Assembly: GCA_018304425.1 (NCBI GenBank)
Contig: JAGVWE010000005.1
Span: 62,001 to 126,000, forward strand
DNA: 64,000 nucleotides
From: Candidatus Iainarchaeum sp.
GTDB lineage: Archaea; Iainarchaeota; Iainarchaeia; Iainarchaeales; UBA10219
Reading direction: 5' to 3'
The translations under genes and the position numbers were made by a program. Positions 5,715-57,065 of this stretch are shown here, one piece after another. Positions within the stretch are counted from its first letter, which is position 1. Each line of letters opens with the position of its first letter. The notes beneath the pieces are model-generated. The model did not search any database, was not told the DNA's origin, and was given only the letters and a program-made list of their open reading frames with translations.

Positions 5715-5728
5715 GTTTTTAAATAAAG
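5715..5728 (+). promoter_or_regulatory. TATA-type promoter of nrdJ
   Basis: GTTTTTAAATAAAG is a good archaeal TATA box. It lies about 75 bases before the nrdJ start, so transcription should begin near 5745-5750 and leave a leader of roughly 50 bases, unlike the leaderless genes elsewhere in the window. No cobalamin riboswitch core was recognised in the leader. Confidence 0.5.
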
Positions 5729-5795: not shown

Positions 5796-8423
5796 ATGTC
5801 TATGAATGCGAAGCGAATCACGGTAGTCAAGAAACGCGATGGCAGGGTCATGCCCTTTACCCCGGAAAAAATCACCAAGGCCATCTATAAGGCTGCCAAA
5901 TCAGTGGGCGGCAGGGATTATGCCCTGGCCCAAAAGCTGTCCCAGAAGGTCATGGAAGAGCTTTCCCATGGCCTTGAAGAAAACGAAATCCCCGAAATCG
6001 AACGCATCCAGGACACGGTTGAAAAAGTGCTCATTGAGGCCGGGCACGCCCGCACGGCCAAGGCCTACATCCTTTACCGGCAGCAGCGCGCCGAACTCAG
6101 GAAGGAAAAGTCCCTGGTGCTGGAGAAAACCGAGATCGATGAAATCGACAAACGCTTTGACTTGAATGCCTTGCGCGTGCTGAAATCCCGTTACCTGCGC
6201 AAGGATGCCGCCGGGCACCTGCTGGAGACGCCGAAGCAATTGTTTTCCCGGGTGGCCATTCACGGCGCGTTGCCAGACCTCCTGGCCGACACCCGCGTCT
6301 ACGACTGGCACGGCAAGCAAAAAGCCCATCCCCTGGAGGCCTTTGACAACGAAAAATACGGGGGCAAGCTGTTCGTCGGCCCCTATGCCTTGAACGCCTA
6401 CCACTTGGAGGCCCTCAAACGGGTCTACGACCGCCACAACGCGGACAAGAAAATGAAGGTGGCCTGGGGCAAGTTCCTCGAGATGCTGAAAGGCGGGGAA
6501 TTCAATGACCACGCGAAGGACATCGATGCCTACTTCGATTTGATGACGGAAAGGAAGTTCGAGCCCAATACCCCGGCGATAGCCAATTTTGGCAACCCCC
6601 TGGGCATGGGTTCGGCCTGTTTTGTCATGGACGTGAAGGACTCCATTGAGGACATCATGGAGACCTTGAAGCAGACCTCCATCATCTTCAAGGCCGGCGG
6701 CGGCATGGGTTATAATTTTTCCAAGCTCCGGCCCGAAGGCGACTTCGTCAGTTCCACGACCGGCATTGCCTCTGGCCCCCTGAGTTTCATGCGGTTGTTT
6801 GACACCATGACGGAAGTTATCAAACAAGGGGGAATCCGGCGGGGCGCCAACATGGGCATCCTGAACTCCAACCATCCGGACATCGAGAAGTTCATCAAAG
6901 CCAAGGAAGGCAACAAGGCCTTGAGGAACTTCAACATCTCGGTCCTGGTCATGGCGGACTTCTGGGACCATTACAACCAGGACAAGCCCTATCCCTTGAC
7001 CAACCCGAGAAGCGGGGAAGTAGTGCGGACCGTGGACCCAAGGCGGCTGTTCGACATGATCGTCTACCAGGCCTGGGAATCCGCCGAGCCCGGAGTCATT
7101 TTCTTCGACCACGTCAACAAGTACAATCCCTTCTACGAGTACCTGGGCCCCATTGTCACGACCAACCCCTGTGGAGAGGTCCTGCTCTACCCCAATGAGT
7201 CCTGCAACCTGGGCAGCATCAATGTCTGGGCGTTTGCCCAGGAACACGAGGACGGCACCACAACCGTTGACTGGGATGGCATGAAGGACGTGGTGCTAAC
7301 CGCTTCCAAGTTCCTGGACAACGTCATCGAAGTCAACAAGTTTCCCTTGCCGGCCGTGGAGCGCATGGCCTTGGACACCCGCAAGATCGGCTTGGGCATC
7401 ATGGGCTTTGGCGACCTCTTGTACGAGTTAAAGCTCGGGTATGACACGGAAGAGGGCCGGAAGTTCGGCGAGCAATTGGCGGAGTTCGTCAACTATTACT
7501 CGAAAGTCGAGTCCATCGAGCTCGCGAAGACGCGGGGAAACCTGCCCTTCTACGACAAGAGCTTTTACCCGGAGGGAAAACTGCCTTTCTCGGCTTCCGA
7601 GGACAAGAGCAGTTGGCACTTTGACTGGGAACAGGTCGCGAAGGATGTCCAGAAATACGGGGTCCGCAACGGTTATACCACGGTCATCGCCCCCACCGGC
7701 AGCATTTCCATGATTGCGGGCTGCAGTTCCGGCATCGAGCCCGTGTTCAGCCTGGTCTTCGAGAAAAACGTGAAAGTCGGCAGCTTTTACTACGTGGACC
7801 CGGTCTTCGAACGCGTCATGAAGCAGGAAGGCTTGTACGACGAGCAGCTCATGGACGACATCTGCAAGAACGAGGGCAGCCTCCAAAACATTGCCTACAT
7901 GCCGCCCGAACTCAAGAAGACCTTTGTTACGGCACGTGACTTGAAACCCGAGGACCACATCCGCATGCTGGCAGCCTTCCAGCGGTGGGTGGACTCCAGC
8001 ATTTCCAAGACCAACAACTTCCCGACGGACGCGACCGTGGAAGACATGCGGAAGAGCTACCTGCTGGCCTACCAGTTGGGATGCAAGGACGTCACGGTTT
8101 ACCGCGACAACTCCATCAAGAACCAGGTCTTGAACGCACCCAAGAAAAAGGTGGAAACCGTGGAGGCCATGCCTGCACAACCATCGCATGGGCAGCCGAT
8201 GGCCGTAACGGCCCAAGCGGCTCCCAAGGGGATGCTCACCCAAGCCACGTACACGGGCAGCAGCACGTTGCTCTTGTCGAACCCTGCAGGCGGCCAGCTC
8301 CCCACCGTGCCATCCAACGGCAAGTTCGGGGACTTGAAGAACTGCCCGGAGTGCAGCACGAGCCTGAAGATTGCGGAGGGCTGCACGAGTTGCGTGGAAT
8401 GCGGTTGGGCGCTGTGCAAATAG
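5796..8423 (+). CDS. nrdJ: Adenosylcobalamin-dependent (class II) ribonucleotide reductase
   Basis: This 875-residue enzyme reduces ribonucleotides to deoxyribonucleotides using adenosylcobalamin as radical source. It has an N-terminal ATP-cone (KRDGRVMPFTPEKITKAIYKA), then the ten-stranded barrel with C275 in GSACFV, NPCGE (C459) and ESCNLGS (C470), and the APTGSISMIAGCSSG segment typical of the class II family. The C-terminus carries a CPEC...CVECGWALC zinc-type cluster, as in many class II enzymes where a Cys pair re-reduces the active site. No intein is present. The next genes encode a cobalamin adenosyltransferase and transport-like proteins, which fits its cofactor need. No other reductase class is seen in the window. 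Confidence 0.95.
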   Translation: MSMNAKRITVVKKRDGRVMPFTPEKITKAIYKAAKSVGGRDYALAQKLSQKVMEELSHGLEENEIPEIERIQDTVEKVLIEAGHARTAKAYILYRQQRAELRKEKSLVLEKTEIDEIDKRFDLNALRVLKSRYLRKDAAGHLLETPKQLFSRVAIHGALPDLLADTRVYDWHGKQKAHPLEAFDNEKYGGKLFVGPYALNAYHLEALKRVYDRHNADKKMKVAWGKFLEMLKGGEFNDHAKDIDAYFDLMTERKFEPNTPAIANFGNPLGMGSACFVMDVKDSIEDIMETLKQTSIIFKAGGGMGYNFSKLRPEGDFVSSTTGIASGPLSFMRLFDTMTEVIKQGGIRRGANMGILNSNHPDIEKFIKAKEGNKALRNFNISVLVMADFWDHYNQDKPYPLTNPRSGEVVRTVDPRRLFDMIVYQAWESAEPGVIFFDHVNKYNPFYEYLGPIVTTNPCGEVLLYPNESCNLGSINVWAFAQEHEDGTTTVDWDGMKDVVLTASKFLDNVIEVNKFPLPAVERMALDTRKIGLGIMGFGDLLYELKLGYDTEEGRKFGEQLAEFVNYYSKVESIELAKTRGNLPFYDKSFYPEGKLPFSASEDKSSWHFDWEQVAKDVQKYGVRNGYTTVIAPTGSISMIAGCSSGIEPVFSLVFEKNVKVGSFYYVDPVFERVMKQEGLYDEQLMDDICKNEGSLQNIAYMPPELKKTFVTARDLKPEDHIRMLAAFQRWVDSSISKTNNFPTDATVEDMRKSYLLAYQLGCKDVTVYRDNSIKNQVLNAPKKKVETVEAMPAQPSHGQPMAVTAQAAPKGMLTQATYTGSSTLLLSNPAGGQLPTVPSNGKFGDLKNCPECSTSLKIAEGCTSCVECGWALCK

Positions 8424-8443
8424 GAACCGCCAGCGGGTTCCTA
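8421..8443 (+). terminator. Hairpin at the nrdJ stop codon
   Basis: A perfect 8-bp stem, TAGGAACC and GGTTCCTA, with a 7-base loop begins on the nrdJ stop codon. A T-rich tract follows at about 8467-8480. It may end or process the nrdJ message before cobO. Confidence 0.45.
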
Positions 8444-8506
8444 TTACCTCCCGCAACCACCGCGGCCTTTTTCTTTCTTTTCGTGGGAGAAGAGGTAGGG
8501 GAATAC

Positions 8507-9061
8507 ATGCCATCCAAACCCAGTTTTGGCCTGGTGCAAGTGTTTTGGGGGAACGGCAAGGGCAAGACCACGGCAGCCATTGGAGAGGGTTTAAGGGCAT
8601 TGGGAAGGGGTTTCAAGGTGCATCTCTTGCAGTTCATGAAGTGCGGAATCGAGGGCAACCAGGATTTTCAAGAGTACGGGGAACTCCTGGCCTTGAAGCA
8701 ATTTCCGGGGTTCACGCTGGAGCGGTATGGCAGCCCCTCCTGGGTCATCGGAAAACCCAAACCCGCGCACCTGAAAGCAGCGGCCGAGGCACTGGCGGCC
8801 ACAAAAAAAGCGGTTGCCTCTGGAGAATTCGATATGGTTATCATTGATGAAATCTTGTACGCGGTACAGTTAGGGCTAATCCGGGAAAGCGACGTACTCG
8901 ACGTCATCCAAGCCAAGGCCAAGGACACCGAGCTCCTCTTGACCGGCAGCCACCAGGAACTGAAGGCCGTCAACGACGCTGCTGACCTGGTTACCCACCT
9001 CCAAAAAATGAAGCATCCCTTCGACCAAGGCATCCTGGCACGCGTCGGCACCGAGTTCTGA
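8507..9061 (+). CDS. cobO: Cob(I)alamin adenosyltransferase, CobA/CobO type
   Basis: This 184-residue P-loop protein transfers the adenosyl group of ATP to cob(I)alamin, making coenzyme B12. The Walker A motif GNGKGKTT is at residues 15-22, near the N-terminus as in the CobA/CobO/BtuR family, followed by the family segments HLLQFMK, DMVIIDEI and LLLTGSH. ATG at 8507 is preceded by a purine-rich GAGGTAGGGG and gives the family's usual start; the longer open frame upstream runs through nrdJ and is a shadow. It lies between the B12-dependent reductase and ECF-type membrane proteins, so it probably activates salvaged corrinoid for NrdJ. Confidence 0.93.
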   Translation: MPSKPSFGLVQVFWGNGKGKTTAAIGEGLRALGRGFKVHLLQFMKCGIEGNQDFQEYGELLALKQFPGFTLERYGSPSWVIGKPKPAHLKAAAEALAATKKAVASGEFDMVIIDEILYAVQLGLIRESDVLDVIQAKAKDTELLLTGSHQELKAVNDAADLVTHLQKMKHPFDQGILARVGTEF

Positions 9062-9070
9062 GGCAAAACC

Positions 9071-9772
9071 ATGCACGCACAACAAATCCAACTCCAAGAA
9101 GAGAAACCGTTGAGGCCTGCAGTCACGAAAAAAATCGAGGCGCTGGGCAAGGAAATAGAGGGCGTTAAAACCGAGCGGGAACTAAAGGACTTTGCCTTGT
9201 TCTTCGGCCTCTTGGCTGCCTCGGTCCTTGGCCGCGTGGCCTTGAAGTACGTTCCCTCCGGCCTCCCCTCCGTGGAACCCATCATCCCCTTCGCGGTGCT
9301 GGCCGGCCTCCTCTTCGGCGTCAAGGAAGGCTTCGTCTTGGGCAGTTCCGCTTACGTGGTCTCCAATTTCTTCGTGCCCGGCCTCCAAGGCCCTTGGACG
9401 GTCTTCCAAGCCCTGGGAGCCGGTTTGGCTGGCTTGTTTGGCGGCGTGCACCGGGGTTTCGGAAAGCCCACCGGCAAAGCCCTGATAGCGTTAACGGTTT
9501 TCGGAACCCTCGTGTTCGAGTTAATCGTGAACGTGTCCGGCGGCCTGCTCGGCATCGGATGGTTTACGGGCCTGATGGGGTTGCCCCTTTACTTCCTGAC
9601 TTCGCTGCCCTTTTCCGCCGTGCACACCCTGACTAACGCGGGCTTTGCTGCGTTCTTGAAGCCCCTGCTTTCGCTGAGGAAAAACGATGAACAAAAATTC
9701 AGCCTGGTCAGCCTTACTCGTGCTGTTAACGGTAAGCGCCTTACTGTCCGGATGCTTAAGTCAAACGAATGA
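9071..9772 (+). CDS. ECF transporter S-component-like membrane protein
   Basis: This 233-residue protein has about 5-6 hydrophobic helices after a charged 40-residue N-terminus and resembles substrate-binding S components of ECF vitamin transporters. It shares W-T-x-F/Y-Q-x-L-G and GTLVFEL with the gene at 10085, so the two are paralogues. Position after cobO suggests cobalamin or a precursor as substrate; this is inference. No ECF ATPase or T component lies in the window. The C-terminal 86 bases overlap the start of the lipoprotein gene in another frame, an unusually long same-strand overlap. A frameshift that extended this gene is possible, since its last ~28 residues look non-conserved and hydrophilic. 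Confidence 0.78.
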   Translation: MHAQQIQLQEEKPLRPAVTKKIEALGKEIEGVKTERELKDFALFFGLLAASVLGRVALKYVPSGLPSVEPIIPFAVLAGLLFGVKEGFVLGSSAYVVSNFFVPGLQGPWTVFQALGAGLAGLFGGVHRGFGKPTGKALIALTVFGTLVFELIVNVSGGLLGIGWFTGLMGLPLYFLTSLPFSAVHTLTNAGFAAFLKPLLSLRKNDEQKFSLVSLTRAVNGKRLTVRMLKSNE

Positions 9773-10085
9773 CGGCACCCAACCGGTTTCGGTCTCCGTT
9801 TCCGTGGTGGCGGACGGGCAAGTGCTGGCCCAGGCAAGCGGTTCCTTTCCTGCGGGCACCACGGCCTTGGATGCCTTGAAGCCACTCATTCCCTTGGCCT
9901 ACACGGACTCCCCCCTGGGAGCCTTTGTGACTTCGGTGGCAGGCAAGCCCGCGCCCGACGATTACTATTGGGCGCTCTACGTGGACGACGAGTACGCGAA
10001 GGTCGGCGTGAGCATGCTTCGACTGGAAAAAGAAACGCGCCTCGAGTGGCGGCTGGAAAAAATCGTAGACGCGCAGGTGAGCTGA
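9687..10085 (+). CDS. DUF4430 (transcobalamin-like domain) lipoprotein
   Basis: This 132-residue protein has a clear lipoprotein signal (LLVLLTVSALLSGC, lipid Cys at 23) and a single DUF4430 domain, the fold related to the C-terminal domain of eukaryotic transcobalamin and intrinsic factor. The signature is YYWALYVDDEYAKVGV followed by a closing LEWRLE strand. Proteins with this domain are often found with ECF or cobalamin uptake genes. It is placed between two paralogous ECF S-like genes, overlapping the first by 86 bases and the second by one (TGATG). It probably holds a corrinoid outside the cell and hands it to the membrane component. Direct cobalamin binding is inferred, not shown. Confidence 0.82.
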   Translation: MNKNSAWSALLVLLTVSALLSGCLSQTNDGTQPVSVSVSVVADGQVLAQASGSFPAGTTALDALKPLIPLAYTDSPLGAFVTSVAGKPAPDDYYWALYVDDEYAKVGVSMLRLEKETRLEWRLEKIVDAQVS

Positions 10086-10570
10086 TGGCCAAGCCCAGCG
10101 AGGACCGCTTTTTCTTGCTGCTCCTGGTAGCCGTGTTGGGCCGGCTCCTCCTCCTGCCCCTGCCCTCCATCAAGCCCATCCTTCCGATCATCGTCTTCAC
10201 GGCCCTCTCCCTGGGCCTGGACCAGGGCCTCTTGATGGCGTTCCTAGGGTTTTTCCTCTCCAACCTGGTCATTGACGGCATCTCCGGCTATGGCTTTGGG
10301 AGTTGGACGATTTACCAGGTCCTGGGCGGGGCCTTGGCTGCCTACACCGCCACCCTGGTCGCTGGGCGCAGGCCCGTGACTTCCATGGACCTCGTCAACG
10401 CCACCCTGGCCGGCACCCTGGTCTTCGAGCTCACCATCAACTTCGGCAGCGCAGGAGGCCTGGACATCGAATACTTTTTGGGCTCGCTGCCCTTTGCTTT
10501 GGCCCACCTGGCGGGAAACCTGGTGTTCGCCGTCCTCTTGAGCGGGTTTTTGCCGAAGACTTCACATTAG
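10085..10570 (+). CDS. ECF transporter S-component-like membrane protein, second copy
   Basis: This 161-residue membrane protein has about five hydrophobic helices and is the short paralogue of the protein at 9071. Shared motifs are SWTIYQVLGG and GTLVFELTIN. The start ATG shares one base with the upstream stop, so it is translationally coupled to the DUF4430 lipoprotein. A two-protein arrangement around one extracellular lipoprotein suggests either a heteromeric S unit or two related substrates. The last nine bases overlap the convergent DUF554 gene. The upstream in-frame extension back to 9968 lies inside the DUF4430 gene and is ignored. Confidence 0.76.
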   Translation: MAKPSEDRFFLLLLVAVLGRLLLLPLPSIKPILPIIVFTALSLGLDQGLLMAFLGFFLSNLVIDGISGYGFGSWTIYQVLGGALAAYTATLVAGRRPVTSMDLVNATLAGTLVFELTINFGSAGGLDIEYFLGSLPFALAHLAGNLVFAVLLSGFLPKTSH

Positions 10571-11212
10571 TTGGCTGAACGCAACGGCCAGCACCAACGC
10601 AGGCAGGTAGTTCGCGACTTTCACGGGCTTGAGTTCCAGGAGGTTCAGGGCCAGGCCCAGCAGGAGGATGCTGCTGACACCGGTCAGGTTGGCGAGGGCG
10701 TGCGGGGAGAAAAATGGTTTGAGCGTGCCAGCGAGCAACGTCAATCCCCCTTGGAACAACAGAAGCGGTACGGCGGTCAAGGCGATGATCGGGCCCGCGG
10801 TGGCGGCGAAGGCCACCGCGGAAAAGAAGTCCAGAGCCGACTTGGAGTACAGCAGGCTGGCGTCTCCCTTCAAGCCGTCGTTGAGCGCACCCAGAATGGT
10901 GAGGGGGCCGACGCAGAACAAGAGAAAGGTGTTGAGCACCAGGCTCATGCCTTGCTCGCCGGTCGCGGGCGCGTGCCTGGTCAAGGACTGCAAGCGCGCA
11001 TCAATTCGCAGGCGCTCGCCGAGCGCGTGGCCGCCCAAAAGGCTGACCAGGACCACCAACGGGTTTTGGGCGGCGGACACGCCTTGGATGGCCAGGTACA
11101 AGGTCAACAATCCGATTGCGGCGAACTGGGCCTGACTAGTTTTCAGCCGCAGCCTAGCCCCCAACAAGCCCCCGGCGGCGACAGCGATGGTGTTTACCAC
11201 GGTTCCGAGCAT
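10562..11212 (-). CDS. DUF554 (YdfK-like) membrane protein
   Basis: This 216-residue protein has about six hydrophobic segments and the DUF554 opening GTVVNTIAVAAGGLLGARL, plus the conserved FCVGPLTILGALNDGLKGD block. The DUF554 family is widespread but its function is unknown; a transport role is usually guessed. ATG at 11212 lies about 25 bases from a CTAATTAG box (11234-11241) reading in this direction, so it is probably leaderless. It converges on the ECF S-like gene with a nine-base overlap and diverges from the Lrp regulator. Confidence 0.85.
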   Translation of the reverse strand: MLGTVVNTIAVAAGGLLGARLRLKTSQAQFAAIGLLTLYLAIQGVSAAQNPLVVLVSLLGGHALGERLRIDARLQSLTRHAPATGEQGMSLVLNTFLLFCVGPLTILGALNDGLKGDASLLYSKSALDFFSAVAFAATAGPIIALTAVPLLLFQGGLTLLAGTLKPFFSPHALANLTGVSSILLLGLALNLLELKPVKVANYLPALVLAVAFSQLM

Positions 11213-11264
11213 ACAATACTAGGGTTCGACCAACTAATTAGTCCTGCGCCTGGAGAAAACCCAG

Positions 11265-11274
11265 CTATTTATCA
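11265..11274 (+). promoter_or_regulatory. TATA box of the Lrp-family gene
   Basis: CTATTTATCA lies about 26-30 bases before the ATG at 11299 and predicts a leaderless message. It is separate from the CTATTAG-like box of the divergent DUF554 gene some 30 bases away. Confidence 0.45.
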
Positions 11275-11298
11275 TCCTTTTGCTGGAAAAACAATAAT

Positions 11299-11733
11299 AT
11301 GGATGAATTGGACCAGAAATTGGTGGAATTGCTTGCCCTAGACAGCCGCATCAAGGTGGCTGGGTTGGCCAAGAAGCTGAAAATACCGGCTTCCACGGCT
11401 GCCGCGCGGGTGGTGAAGCTCGTCAAGAGCGGGTTCCTCAAGCGGTTCACCATCGAATTGGATTACGAGAAGGCCGGCAAACCGTTGTTGGCCTTGTGCC
11501 AGGTGAGCGTGAGGCACTCCAAGAACGATCCCGACCAGACCATCCAAGCGCTGCTCAAGCTGGCGGACGTCCAGGAAATCTATTCCACGACCGGGGAATG
11601 GGATTTCACCATCGTCATCCGCACCCAAGACATCAAGTCCCTGAAGAAGCTGGTCACGTACGACCTCAAGGCCTCGCTGCCCGACATCGTGCGCTCGAAC
11701 ACGCTGATTGCGTTGGAATACGGGAAGAAATGA
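11299..11733 (+). CDS. Lrp/AsnC-family transcription regulator
   Basis: This 144-residue DNA-binding protein has the normal length of a single-unit Lrp/AsnC (feast/famine) regulator. Residues 2-60 form the winged helix (LDQKLVELLALDSRIKVAGLAKKL), and the rest is the RAM ligand domain with VQEIYSTTGEWDFTIVIR. Such proteins form octamers or dimers that sense amino acids or other small molecules. It sits between the B12-related block and a BtuF-like gene, so local control of those genes is possible but unproved. Its stop is two bases from the convergent stop of the BtuF-like gene. Confidence 0.9.
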   Translation: MDELDQKLVELLALDSRIKVAGLAKKLKIPASTAAARVVKLVKSGFLKRFTIELDYEKAGKPLLALCQVSVRHSKNDPDQTIQALLKLADVQEIYSTTGEWDFTIVIRTQDIKSLKKLVTYDLKASLPDIVRSNTLIALEYGKK

Positions 11734-11734
11734 G

Positions 11735-12505
11735 TTAGAAAATATCTGGATGAAATAGCGCGGCCAACCGCTTCGCCCCTTCGCCGAGGCGGGGGTCCGG
11801 GCTGTTGAGATAATTGTCGTCCAGCGAGTGCACGCGCCCGGTCTTGATGGCCGTGATGCCCTGCCAGCCTTCGCGGTTGCGAATCACACCCAAATCTTCC
11901 TTGCCACAGAACCCGCACCAGGCCGCAACGATGACCTCGGGGTCGAATTGCTGGACTTGTTCGGTGGACACCGGAGCCGAACGCATGCCGGGCCCGGCCA
12001 GCCCCGAGATGCCGCCCGCGGTTTCCACGATTTCGGGCACCCAGTTGCCGGAAGCGGTGGGCGGCTTGTGCCATTCCTCGACGTAGACGCGTTTCCTGGG
12101 CAGGCCCCGGGTCTGCTGCTGGATCCCCCTTAACTGCCTTTGAACCAGGTGCTGCAAGTCTTTGCCTGTTTGTGGCTCGCCCAAGGCCTTGCCGAGGTCG
12201 GCAAACGACTGCAAGACGTCTGACAAATCTTTCGGGTCGACGTGGAACACTTTCAACCCCCTTTCTTCCAAGACATCGGCAATGCGTTCCTGCAAGAACG
12301 TCGAGGTCAACACCAGGTCGGGCTTCAAGGCCGCGACCTTGTCGTAGTCCACGTCCAGCCAGCCCCCGACGATTACGGGCGGTTTCTTGGCGTCGAACTT
12401 CGGACAGAACCGCGTGCAGCCGACGATTTTGTCCTGCAAGCCCAGGCCCAAAACGATTTGCGTGTTGCTCGGCGCAAGCGAAACGATTTTCTTCGGTTCA
12501 GCCAA
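11735..12505 (-). CDS. BtuF-like corrinoid/metal-binding protein without signal peptide
   Basis: This 256-residue protein belongs to the helical-backbone substrate-binding family of BtuF and iron-complex receptors. The N-terminal lobe opens IVSLAPSNTQIVLGLGLQDKIVGCTRFCP and continues VDYDKVAALKPDLVLTST; the C-terminal lobe has PEVIVAAWCGFCGK. I chose TTG at 12505 because it starts the family domain and overlaps the DUF309 stop by eight bases; the frame further upstream is a shadow of DUF309. No signal peptide or lipid Cys is visible, so this copy seems cytoplasmic, and no BtuCD genes are nearby. It may bind corrinoid inside the cell. A missed N-terminal signal is unlikely given the tight overlap. 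Confidence 0.8.
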   Translation of the reverse strand: MAEPKKIVSLAPSNTQIVLGLGLQDKIVGCTRFCPKFDAKKPPVIVGGWLDVDYDKVAALKPDLVLTSTFLQERIADVLEERGLKVFHVDPKDLSDVLQSFADLGKALGEPQTGKDLQHLVQRQLRGIQQQTRGLPRKRVYVEEWHKPPTASGNWVPEIVETAGGISGLAGPGMRSAPVSTEQVQQFDPEVIVAAWCGFCGKEDLGVIRNREGWQGITAIKTGRVHSLDDNYLNSPDPRLGEGAKRLAALFHPDIF

Positions 12506-56354: not shown

Positions 56355-57065
56355 TTGGATTGGAGGAAGATTTTCACGCCCCAGGGGCTGCTGTTCACCG
56401 TGCTCTTCCTAGCTATGGTCATGGCCTCCAACCAGCTGAATTTTTCGTCCCTGCTTGGCAAACCCAACCAGTTTTTCACGTTCTTCCAGTTCATCGGGCC
56501 CCTGGCCGGCGGCTTCCTCGGCCCCATTGCTGGTGCCCTGCTCGTGTTCGCCGCGCAACTGGTGGATGCCTTCCTCCACGGCAAGGCCCTCGACCTTTCC
56601 ACTATTGGCTGGCTGCTGCCCATGGTCTTCGCCAGCATCTACTTCGGCAGCAGGCGGAATTCCTCGAGCCGCATCATCTCGTTTGCGGCCATCCTCCTGT
56701 TCCTCCTGCACCCGGTGGGGCGAACGGCCTGGTTTTACTCGCTGTACTGGTTCATCCCCGTGCTGTGCTGGCTGTTCCGCAAGCACTTGTTCGCCCGCAG
56801 TCTGGGCGCAACCTTCACCGCGCACGCCATCGGCGGCGCGCTCTGGGTGTGGACCGTGCCCATGACCACCGAGCAATGGATGGCACTCATCCCCATCGTG
56901 GCCTACGAGCGGCTGTTGTTCGCGGCCGGCATCAGCGTTTCCTACATCGCGTTGAACACCCTGTTAAGCAAGGCGGCCTCGCTGCTGCCCTACGACCTCG
57001 TCGAAGTCAACCCAAAATACGTTTTGTCGAGAGAAATGCTGGGCAAAACATTCGGCATGGGATAA
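56355..57065 (+). CDS. ECF S-component-like membrane protein (third copy type)
   Basis: This 236-residue protein has about six membrane helices and the general layout of an ECF S component or related transport protein (FFQFIGPLAGGFLGPIAGALLVF). It does not share the motifs of the pair at 9071 and 10085. The only good start is TTG at 56355; a TATA-like GTATTATTC lies about 25 bases before it. The substrate is unknown. It stands alone. Confidence 0.65.
   Translation: MDWRKIFTPQGLLFTVLFLAMVMASNQLNFSSLLGKPNQFFTFFQFIGPLAGGFLGPIAGALLVFAAQLVDAFLHGKALDLSTIGWLLPMVFASIYFGSRRNSSSRIISFAAILLFLLHPVGRTAWFYSLYWFIPVLCWLFRKHLFARSLGATFTAHAIGGALWVWTVPMTTEQWMALIPIVAYERLLFAAGISVSYIALNTLLSKAASLLPYDLVEVNPKYVLSREMLGKTFGMG

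Follow-up and report, generated by a model that had tools for sequence, protein, structure and literature searches.

A probable archaeal counterpart of the bacterial nrdJ-cbrS-cbrT-pduO cluster with two S-component-like proteins and a transcobalamin-like lipoprotein

We examined a 64,000-nucleotide stretch of DNA (the window) from a Candidatus Diapherotrites-type archaeon and found nrdJ, cobO, a first S-component gene (S1), a DUF4430 lipoprotein gene and a second S-component gene (S2) in this order on the forward strand. It is probable (about 0.8) that these genes form an operon for the scavenging and use of cobamides, the archaeal counterpart of the nrdJ-cbrS-cbrT-pduO cluster of bacteria. 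Because the same gene set is found in Lactobacillales, we regard the locus as the archaeal version of a cobalamin locus already known from bacteria and not as a new kind of locus. The joint function is likewise not new, having been published for the bacterial cluster (PMC5997447).

All of the genes named in an initial annotation of this DNA were recovered at their places by profile matches and reading frames. The product of nrdJ (5796–8423, +) is an adenosylcobalamin-dependent class II ribonucleotide reductase with an ATP cone (TIGR02504, PF02867, PF03477, PF00317) that scored 696 bits against TIGR02504, where the cut-off is 400. It is the sole ribonucleotide reductase detected in the genome, and a profile search for NRDD found no NrdD there. 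The next gene, cobO (8507–9061, +), encodes a CobO/BtuR-type corrinoid adenosyltransferase that scored 166 bits against PF02572 (cut-off 25.7) and 140 bits against the equivalog TIGR00708, which is under the cut-off of 168. S1 (9071–9772, +) is an ECF S-component-like membrane protein with only a sub-threshold match to PF12822 (15 bits). The lipoprotein (9687–10085, +) has the lipobox LLSGC and matches PF14478, the transcobalamin beta domain, with 37 bits (cut-off 23.8; E 4e-9). S2 (10085–10570, +) is CbrT-like, with 26.6 bits to DUF6580 (cut-off 27) and 15.5 bits to ECF-riboflavin. S1 overlaps the lipoprotein gene by 86 bp and the lipoprotein stop and S2 start share TGATG; from these overlaps we read the five genes as one operon. 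An AT-rich TATA-like box (TTTTTAAATA; 5716–5725, +), read by eye about 70–80 bp before the nrdJ start, is a candidate promoter.

The initial annotation also counted a BtuF-like protein as a member of the chain, and this part did not stand. The gene for this BtuF/TroA-like protein (11735–12505, –; PF01497, 109 bits) is on the opposite strand, behind two unrelated genes that were omitted from that annotation, DUF554 (10562–11212, –) and an Lrp/AsnC regulator (11299–11733, +). Its reading frame opens directly in the domain with no signal peptide, and the genome has no BtuC permease. On these grounds we excluded it from the operon.

The top Foldseek matches (E 6e-7 to 5no0) of the predicted structure of the lipoprotein (pLDDT 84) were transcobalamin, haptocorrin, intrinsic factor and one bacterial DUF4430-like structure. 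With VIA-align, Z was 13.5–15.5 for the transcobalamin family compared with at most 7.5 for anything else. The beta domain of human transcobalamin is 27% identical to the lipoprotein over about 100 residues, and Trp95 and Tyr98 are conserved across the archaeal DUF4430 set. The protein thus combines a DUF4430 sequence with what is predicted to be the transcobalamin beta-domain fold. This fold is common to transcobalamin, haptocorrin, intrinsic factor and the archaeal protein, but the latter lacks the alpha toroid domain and is a small membrane-anchored lipoprotein.

In a phmmer search of the PDB, CbrT (6fnp_A, E 2.4e-10) was the one S component matched by S2, which scored 51 bits with an HMM of the CbrT group compared with 21 for the heme-type group. 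A histidine is conserved among S1, S2 and CbrT (His185 in S1). A profile built from S1, S2 and short S proteins matched CbrT with E 5.9e-12. The profile of S1 matched CbrT 6fnp with E 4.8e-5 compared with 3.4 for FolT, but when S1 was scored alone, the Latilactobacillus-type S group gave 45 bits and CbrT 25. The best VIA-align matches of the S1 AlphaFold2 model (pLDDT 88) were all ECF S components (Z 12–14.5, rmsd 3.1–4.5, 150–178 residues); CbrT 6fnp was absent from the structure rankings, which carries no weight in either direction. The model predicts a six-helix S-component fold with a long N-terminal helix and a C-terminal beta hairpin. Judged by homology, these proteins are closer to CbrT than to other S components and are putative CbrT-type S components, with a qualification for S1 taken alone.

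Reportedly, CbrT was first named by Rodionov in 2009. It is a proven vitamin B12 S component in Lactobacillus delbrueckii, where it is encoded in nrdJ-cbrS-cbrT-pduO and requires ECF, a shared module (PMC5997447). The order is nrdJ-ATR-DUF4430-CbrT on a Lactiplantibacillus plasmid and nrdJ-ATR-DUF4430-S on pLp900-2, and further Lactobacillales plasmid loci have nrdJ-DUF4430-S-ATR, an S component with nrdJ-ATR-DUF4430, or queG-DUF4430-S. Judging from the loci compared, cbrS would be the DUF4430 gene. The window locus shares with nrdJ-cbrS-cbrT-pduO the clustering of a class II ribonucleotide reductase, an adenosyltransferase, a DUF4430 lipoprotein and an S component, and S2 and the lipoprotein most resemble CbrT and its DUF4430 neighbour. 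By contrast, the window locus is archaeal, has two S components flanking the lipoprotein and an adenosyltransferase of the CobO type, and no ECF module was found for it. When plasmids were searched, neither an S1 orthologue nor S2 nor the lipoprotein gave matches as query; CbrT and an S protein from Thermoplasmatales did.

Absences were tested by family searches across the genome, which is 92.6% complete, and on the stretches surrounding the matches. These searches found no CbiQ/EcfT (PF02361), no FecCD/BtuC permease and no corrin methyltransferase in the genome, in which the lone TP_methylase is Dph5. The strong ABC ATPase matches could all be assigned to Liv, Opp, MacB-like, ABC-2, NitT-like, SufC, ABC-F and ABCE1 loci, and no ATPase pair was left over in the genome for ECF. 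An ECF transporter with EcfT and its pair of EcfA ATPases was therefore not found in this 92.6% of the genome, and neither was a BtuCDF importer. The lack of ECF A and T genes, previously noted for the window, and that of corrinoid synthesis genes both extend to the genome, and a search for a separate BtuCD transporter or for cobalamin synthesis found neither.

We compared 53 genomes of the order. Adenosyltransferases are restricted to NrdJ-bearing genomes (18 of 22 compared with 0 of 31, p 1e-10). All 26 genomes with DUF4430 have NrdJ or a B12-binding-domain protein compared with 20 of the 27 others (p 0.01), a difference that loses significance when only genomes of at least 1 Mb are counted. 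Taken with NrdJ only, DUF4430 shows no significant association in the order as a whole (p 0.098), and S1-lipoprotein pairs are present in NrdJ-less genomes, one of which is 99% complete; strict coupling of the pair to NrdJ was therefore rejected. NrdJ genomes G003, G019 and G029 lack DUF4430, which counts against our preferred explanation since cobamide uptake there is left unexplained. Orthologues of S1 within the order are 45–53% identical. In several relatives RpiA adjoins the S1-lipoprotein pair; we considered this as a hint about substrate, but the arrangement seems to be inherited. In family f14 of the order, S-Trx-NrdJ adjoins or lies near CobO on a single strand, and a neighbourhood of class II ribonucleotide reductase, adenosyltransferase and DUF4430 recurs in the window, the bacterial loci and, in part, the f14 relatives. 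The neighbourhood comparison suggested by the initial annotation thus recovers the set in Lactobacillales and partly in f14.

Together, these data are consistent with the following sequence of events. The surface lipoprotein would capture a cobamide and pass it to S1 and S2, which would let it cross the membrane with no ECF ATPase module, and cytosolic CobO would then adenosylate it, which may both activate it for NrdJ and trap it. Some BioY proteins, like BtuM, have been shown to transport in a host that lacks ECF. BtuM, a solitary B12 S component of proteobacteria, functions with no ECF module, adjoins btuR and binds cobalt through Cys80, and metabolic trapping has been proposed for it (PMC6072759). 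S1 and S2 resemble BtuM in S-component fold (as modelled for S1), in having no ECF module and in the adenosyltransferase alongside. However, they share no close sequence similarity with BtuM and their translations contain no cysteine, so that a BtuM-type axial cobalt ligand is missing. We noted no DUF4430 lipoprotein partner for BtuM in PMC6072759. The CbrT-type pair appears to work with no ECF module, and the route is probably facilitated passage combined with trapping by CobO. The homologies, folds, gene order, conserved neighbourhoods and genome-wide absences are results of the analysis, whereas we infer that the ligand is a cobamide, that the lipoprotein hands it over, that transport is ATP-free and that S1 and S2 act jointly or in parallel. 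A more specific proposal, which we make tentatively and which may well be wrong, is that the two S proteins together make up an ATP-free cobamide importer of two subunits, supplied by the lipoprotein and driven only by cytosolic adenosylation. S1 and S2 would then be a CbrT-lineage pair, from an order of reduced archaea, whose ECF motor has been lost, with relatives among other DPANN archaea and in Marine Group II.

A distant homologue occurs in a full DUF4430-EcfT-EcfAA'-S operon in the Thermoplasmatales archaeon L217, and L. curvatus has a DUF4430-T-A-S operon. These operons have, as in the window, a homologous S component adjoining a DUF4430 protein, but they carry full ECF machinery and neither nrdJ nor an adenosyltransferase is nearby. 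We take the L. curvatus operon to be the heme ECF system of L. sakei, and the Latilactobacillus-type S component to be one for heme uptake. An ECF system of Lactobacillus sakei is cited for heme uptake in PMC7872071 and PMC7299338. Since S1 is closer to the Latilactobacillus type and S1-lipoprotein pairs occur where NrdJ does not, S1 could carry another tetrapyrrole. S1 and the lipoprotein might then be an older importer of the order for heme or several tetrapyrroles, with only S2, encountered in the window genome alone among those compared, added beside nrdJ-cobO as a cobalamin carrier in this lineage. S1 also scores higher with ECF S components of Latilactobacillus and Lactiplantibacillus than with CbrT, and S2 the reverse. 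We consider such an older tetrapyrrole importer unlikely, because the lipoprotein is nearer to the DUF4430 genes beside CbrT (23 bits) than to the heme-type or Latilactobacillus-type one (–2 bits), S1 is placed between cobO and S2, every DUF4430 genome has NrdJ or B12-binding-domain proteins, and in a tree S1 groups with S2, apart from CbrT as well as from the heme-type pair.

The genome is 92.6% complete, so that an ECF module encoded in the remaining 7% may have been overlooked and could energise the S pair; a divergent, unrecognised EcfT/EcfA could do so too. The ECF requirement of L. delbrueckii CbrT, the Thermoplasmatales operon and an EcfT operon in family f8 of the order all point this way. 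This seems quite improbable, as EcfT is found in only 7 of the 53 genomes, there beside its own RibU-like S component, and is absent from 20 of the 26 DUF4430 genomes; the strong ABC ATPase matches also belong to other loci. Finally, receptor domains share the S-component fold (PMC11109136), and with a BtuF-like gene nearby it is conceivable that S1 and S2 act as receptors for cobalamin, as regulators or as surface anchors instead of transporting it, while uptake follows another route, such as one through the BtuF-like protein. That idea is very hard to sustain given that the BtuF-like protein has neither a signal peptide nor a FecCD partner, no signalling domain was detected on S1 or S2, and CbrT is a B12 transporter (PMC5997447).

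A cobamide scavenging operon thus remains our preferred reading. The chain of capture, import, adenosylation and use put forward earlier is upheld by the CbrT and transcobalamin matches, the Lactobacillales gene sets, in part by f14, and by the missing ECF A/T and corrinoid synthesis genes; it loses the BtuF-like member, and S1 is qualified by its closeness to the Latilactobacillus type and by the pairs lacking NrdJ. Few routes are known by which DPANN archaea acquire cofactors from partners, and this locus would offer a concrete one for B12: the only ribonucleotide reductase detected in this genome depends on it, and neither BtuC nor EcfT nor corrin synthesis was found there. Transcobalamin-type DUF4430 proteins paired with an S component, as in bacteria, are now also seen in DPANN archaea, in Marine Group II and in Thermoplasmatales. 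Natural S components of the CbrT lineage that appear to have no motor would bear on how solitary S components move their substrates.

nrdJ (5796-8423), cobO (8507-9061), S1 (9071-9772), a lipoprotein gene with a lipobox and a DUF4430 domain (9687-10085) and S2 (10085-10570) are five consecutive genes on the + strand, which confirms the cluster noticed in the initial annotation. Only 9 bp separate cobO from S1, S1 overlaps the lipoprotein gene by 86 bp, and the start of S2 overlaps the lipoprotein stop. A DUF554 gene and a BtuF-like gene run in the opposite direction, with a solitary Lrp-type regulator in between. The salvage chain proposed earlier is largely right for the lipoprotein, S1/S2, CobO and NrdJ, but not for the TroA/BtuF-like protein (11735-12505, - strand), which is encoded on the opposite strand and has neither a signal peptide nor a FecCD partner in the genome. 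It may bind a corrinoid or a metal in the cytosol.

The same gene set recurs in Lactobacillales. The order is nrdJ-ATR (adenosyltransferase)-DUF4430-S on Lactiplantibacillus pLp900-2 and nrdJ-DUF4430-S-ATR in Lactobacillus intestinalis; S adjoins nrdJ-ATR-DUF4430 in Enterococcus faecalis and Lactococcus, and Enterococcus gilvus has queG-DUF4430-S. The L. delbrueckii locus is nrdJ-cbrS-cbrT-pduO (PMC5997447). For Lacticaseibacillus, one paper puts a DUF4430 gene next to rtpR, which encodes the AdoCbl-dependent reductase, and its list includes an "additional lipoprotein component of putative cobalamin ECF transporter" (PMC9963975). Comparison with related genomes extends this neighborhood of S, NrdJ and adenosyltransferase to family f14 of the window's order, where the genes for a short S protein, a thioredoxin-like protein, NrdJ and CobO share a strand; CobO directly follows NrdJ in G013 and comes a few genes later in G033. 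The five-gene locus is thus a new archaeal variant of a locus already known in bacteria.

S1 and S2 match Pfam only under cut-offs. The sole relevant solved protein matched by a joint profile of S1, S2 and relatives was CbrT (6fnp; 5.9e-12), the S component in a transporter proven biochemically to carry B12 (PMC5997447); S2 alone matched it at 2.4e-10 and an S1 orthologue profile at 4.8e-5. The S1 structure model (pLDDT 88) has the S-component fold, with matches including FolT, ThiT, RibU, PanT, BioY and BtuM. S1, S2 and the order's short S proteins have thirteen invariant residues in common, and S1 His185 and Asn189, invariant across 31 archaeal sequences, align with His and Asn in CbrT. Because neither S1 nor S2 contains cysteine, the way BtuM holds cobalt is excluded for them. 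One scan of genome contigs placed the closest S1 relatives mostly in Candidatus Diapherotrites records, which, together with its archaeal rRNA genes, puts the window genome in or near that group. More S1 relatives, often adjoining a DUF4430 gene, came from other DPANN archaea, from Marine Group II and from a single Thermoplasmatales genome. In the latter, a DUF4430 gene, EcfT (PF02361, 3e-16) and a double EcfA precede the S gene; this arrangement suggests that, given a motor, members of the family are true ECF S components. That operon (L217:5088-9187) continues with a 227 aa protein without a Pfam match, and a toroid-like protein lies directly upstream.

The lipoprotein model is closest to transcobalamin, haptocorrin, intrinsic factor and one bacterial protein (3u7z), at Z 13.5-15.5 versus 7.5 for the next match; the human transcobalamin beta domain aligns with the lipoprotein over 100 residues at 27% identity. 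The ligand of S1 is less clear-cut. S2 scored 51 bits with CbrT versus 21 with the Latilactobacillus/Lactiplantibacillus S group, whereas S1 scored 25 versus 45. The corresponding L. sakei operon is one we take to function in heme uptake, and the substrate of S1 may therefore be a different tetrapyrrole, alone or along with a cobamide. An ECF heme system in L. sakei is confirmed by papers that cite it, though not the identity of its genes (PMC7872071, PMC7299338). The lipoprotein, however, sides with the CbrT-linked DUF4430 genes (23 versus -2). In the tree, S1 and S2 form a pair (support 92/89), S2 on a long branch, outside the group of CbrT, Marine Group II and Latilactobacillus-type S proteins.

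Other DUF4430 domains are fused to an ArsR-type HTH (L063, L064, L065, L067, L069, L083, L084, L085 and L087; for example L065:6032-6541 - and 6642-8189 +). In most of these loci the gene is divergent from a small partner and a secreted protein in which DUF4430 precedes an alpha/alpha toroid, the parts of transcobalamin in reversed order; in G018 (L085) it lies ~3.5 kb from pduO. The fusion would fit a candidate sensor for a cobamide or a tetrapyrrole, equipped with a binding protein of its own.

Genome-wide searches bore out the absences seen in the window. No CbiQ/EcfT, FecCD permease (BtuC) or NRDD was found in the genome (1.48 Mb, 92.6% complete), and its ABC ATPases belong to Liv, Opp, MacB-like, ABC-2, NitT-like and SufC loci or are ABC-F/ABCE1. 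Corrin synthesis requires several TP_methylases; the single one encoded is Dph5. EcfT occurs in only seven genomes of the order (L099-L105; family f8 and G010), in a compact operon with a RibU-like S protein and a fused double EcfA. A third S-component-like membrane protein (56355-57065, +; PF12822, E 0.0027), by profile unrelated to S1/S2, likewise has no EcfT in the window genome.

In the order (53 genomes), adenosyltransferases of the CobO or PduO type were present in 18/22 genomes with NrdJ versus 0/31 without it (p 1e-10). The tie to DUF4430 is looser, with NrdJ in 14/26 DUF4430 genomes (p 0.098). NrdJ or a B12-binding-domain protein occurred in 26/26 DUF4430 genomes versus 20/27 others (p 0.01); genome size and ancestry are confounders in this comparison. 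Two such proteins, both B12-binding radical SAM proteins, are encoded by the window genome. Four genomes (G003, G019, G029 and G038) have NrdJ and CobO, with no DUF4430, clear FecCD or EcfT found, and are B12-dependent without a recognizable B12 importer of the types searched. In G010, G013, G015, G027, G029, G033, G034, G036, G041 and G047, NrdJ reading frames are 1172-1909 aa long and match the family in pieces, with intein-like insertions at several positions.

The homology and gene order shown for the locus, with the absences shown for the genome, are best read as a chain in which the lipoprotein would capture the ligand and hand it over to S1/S2, passage through these would proceed without ATP, CobO would adenosylate and trap the ligand, and NrdJ would use the product. 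In this chain we infer the ligand, the hand-over and the ATP-free passage. BtuM, adjoining btuR, is a precedent for passage without ECF (PMC6072759). It is the missing motor that makes the archaeal locus of interest.
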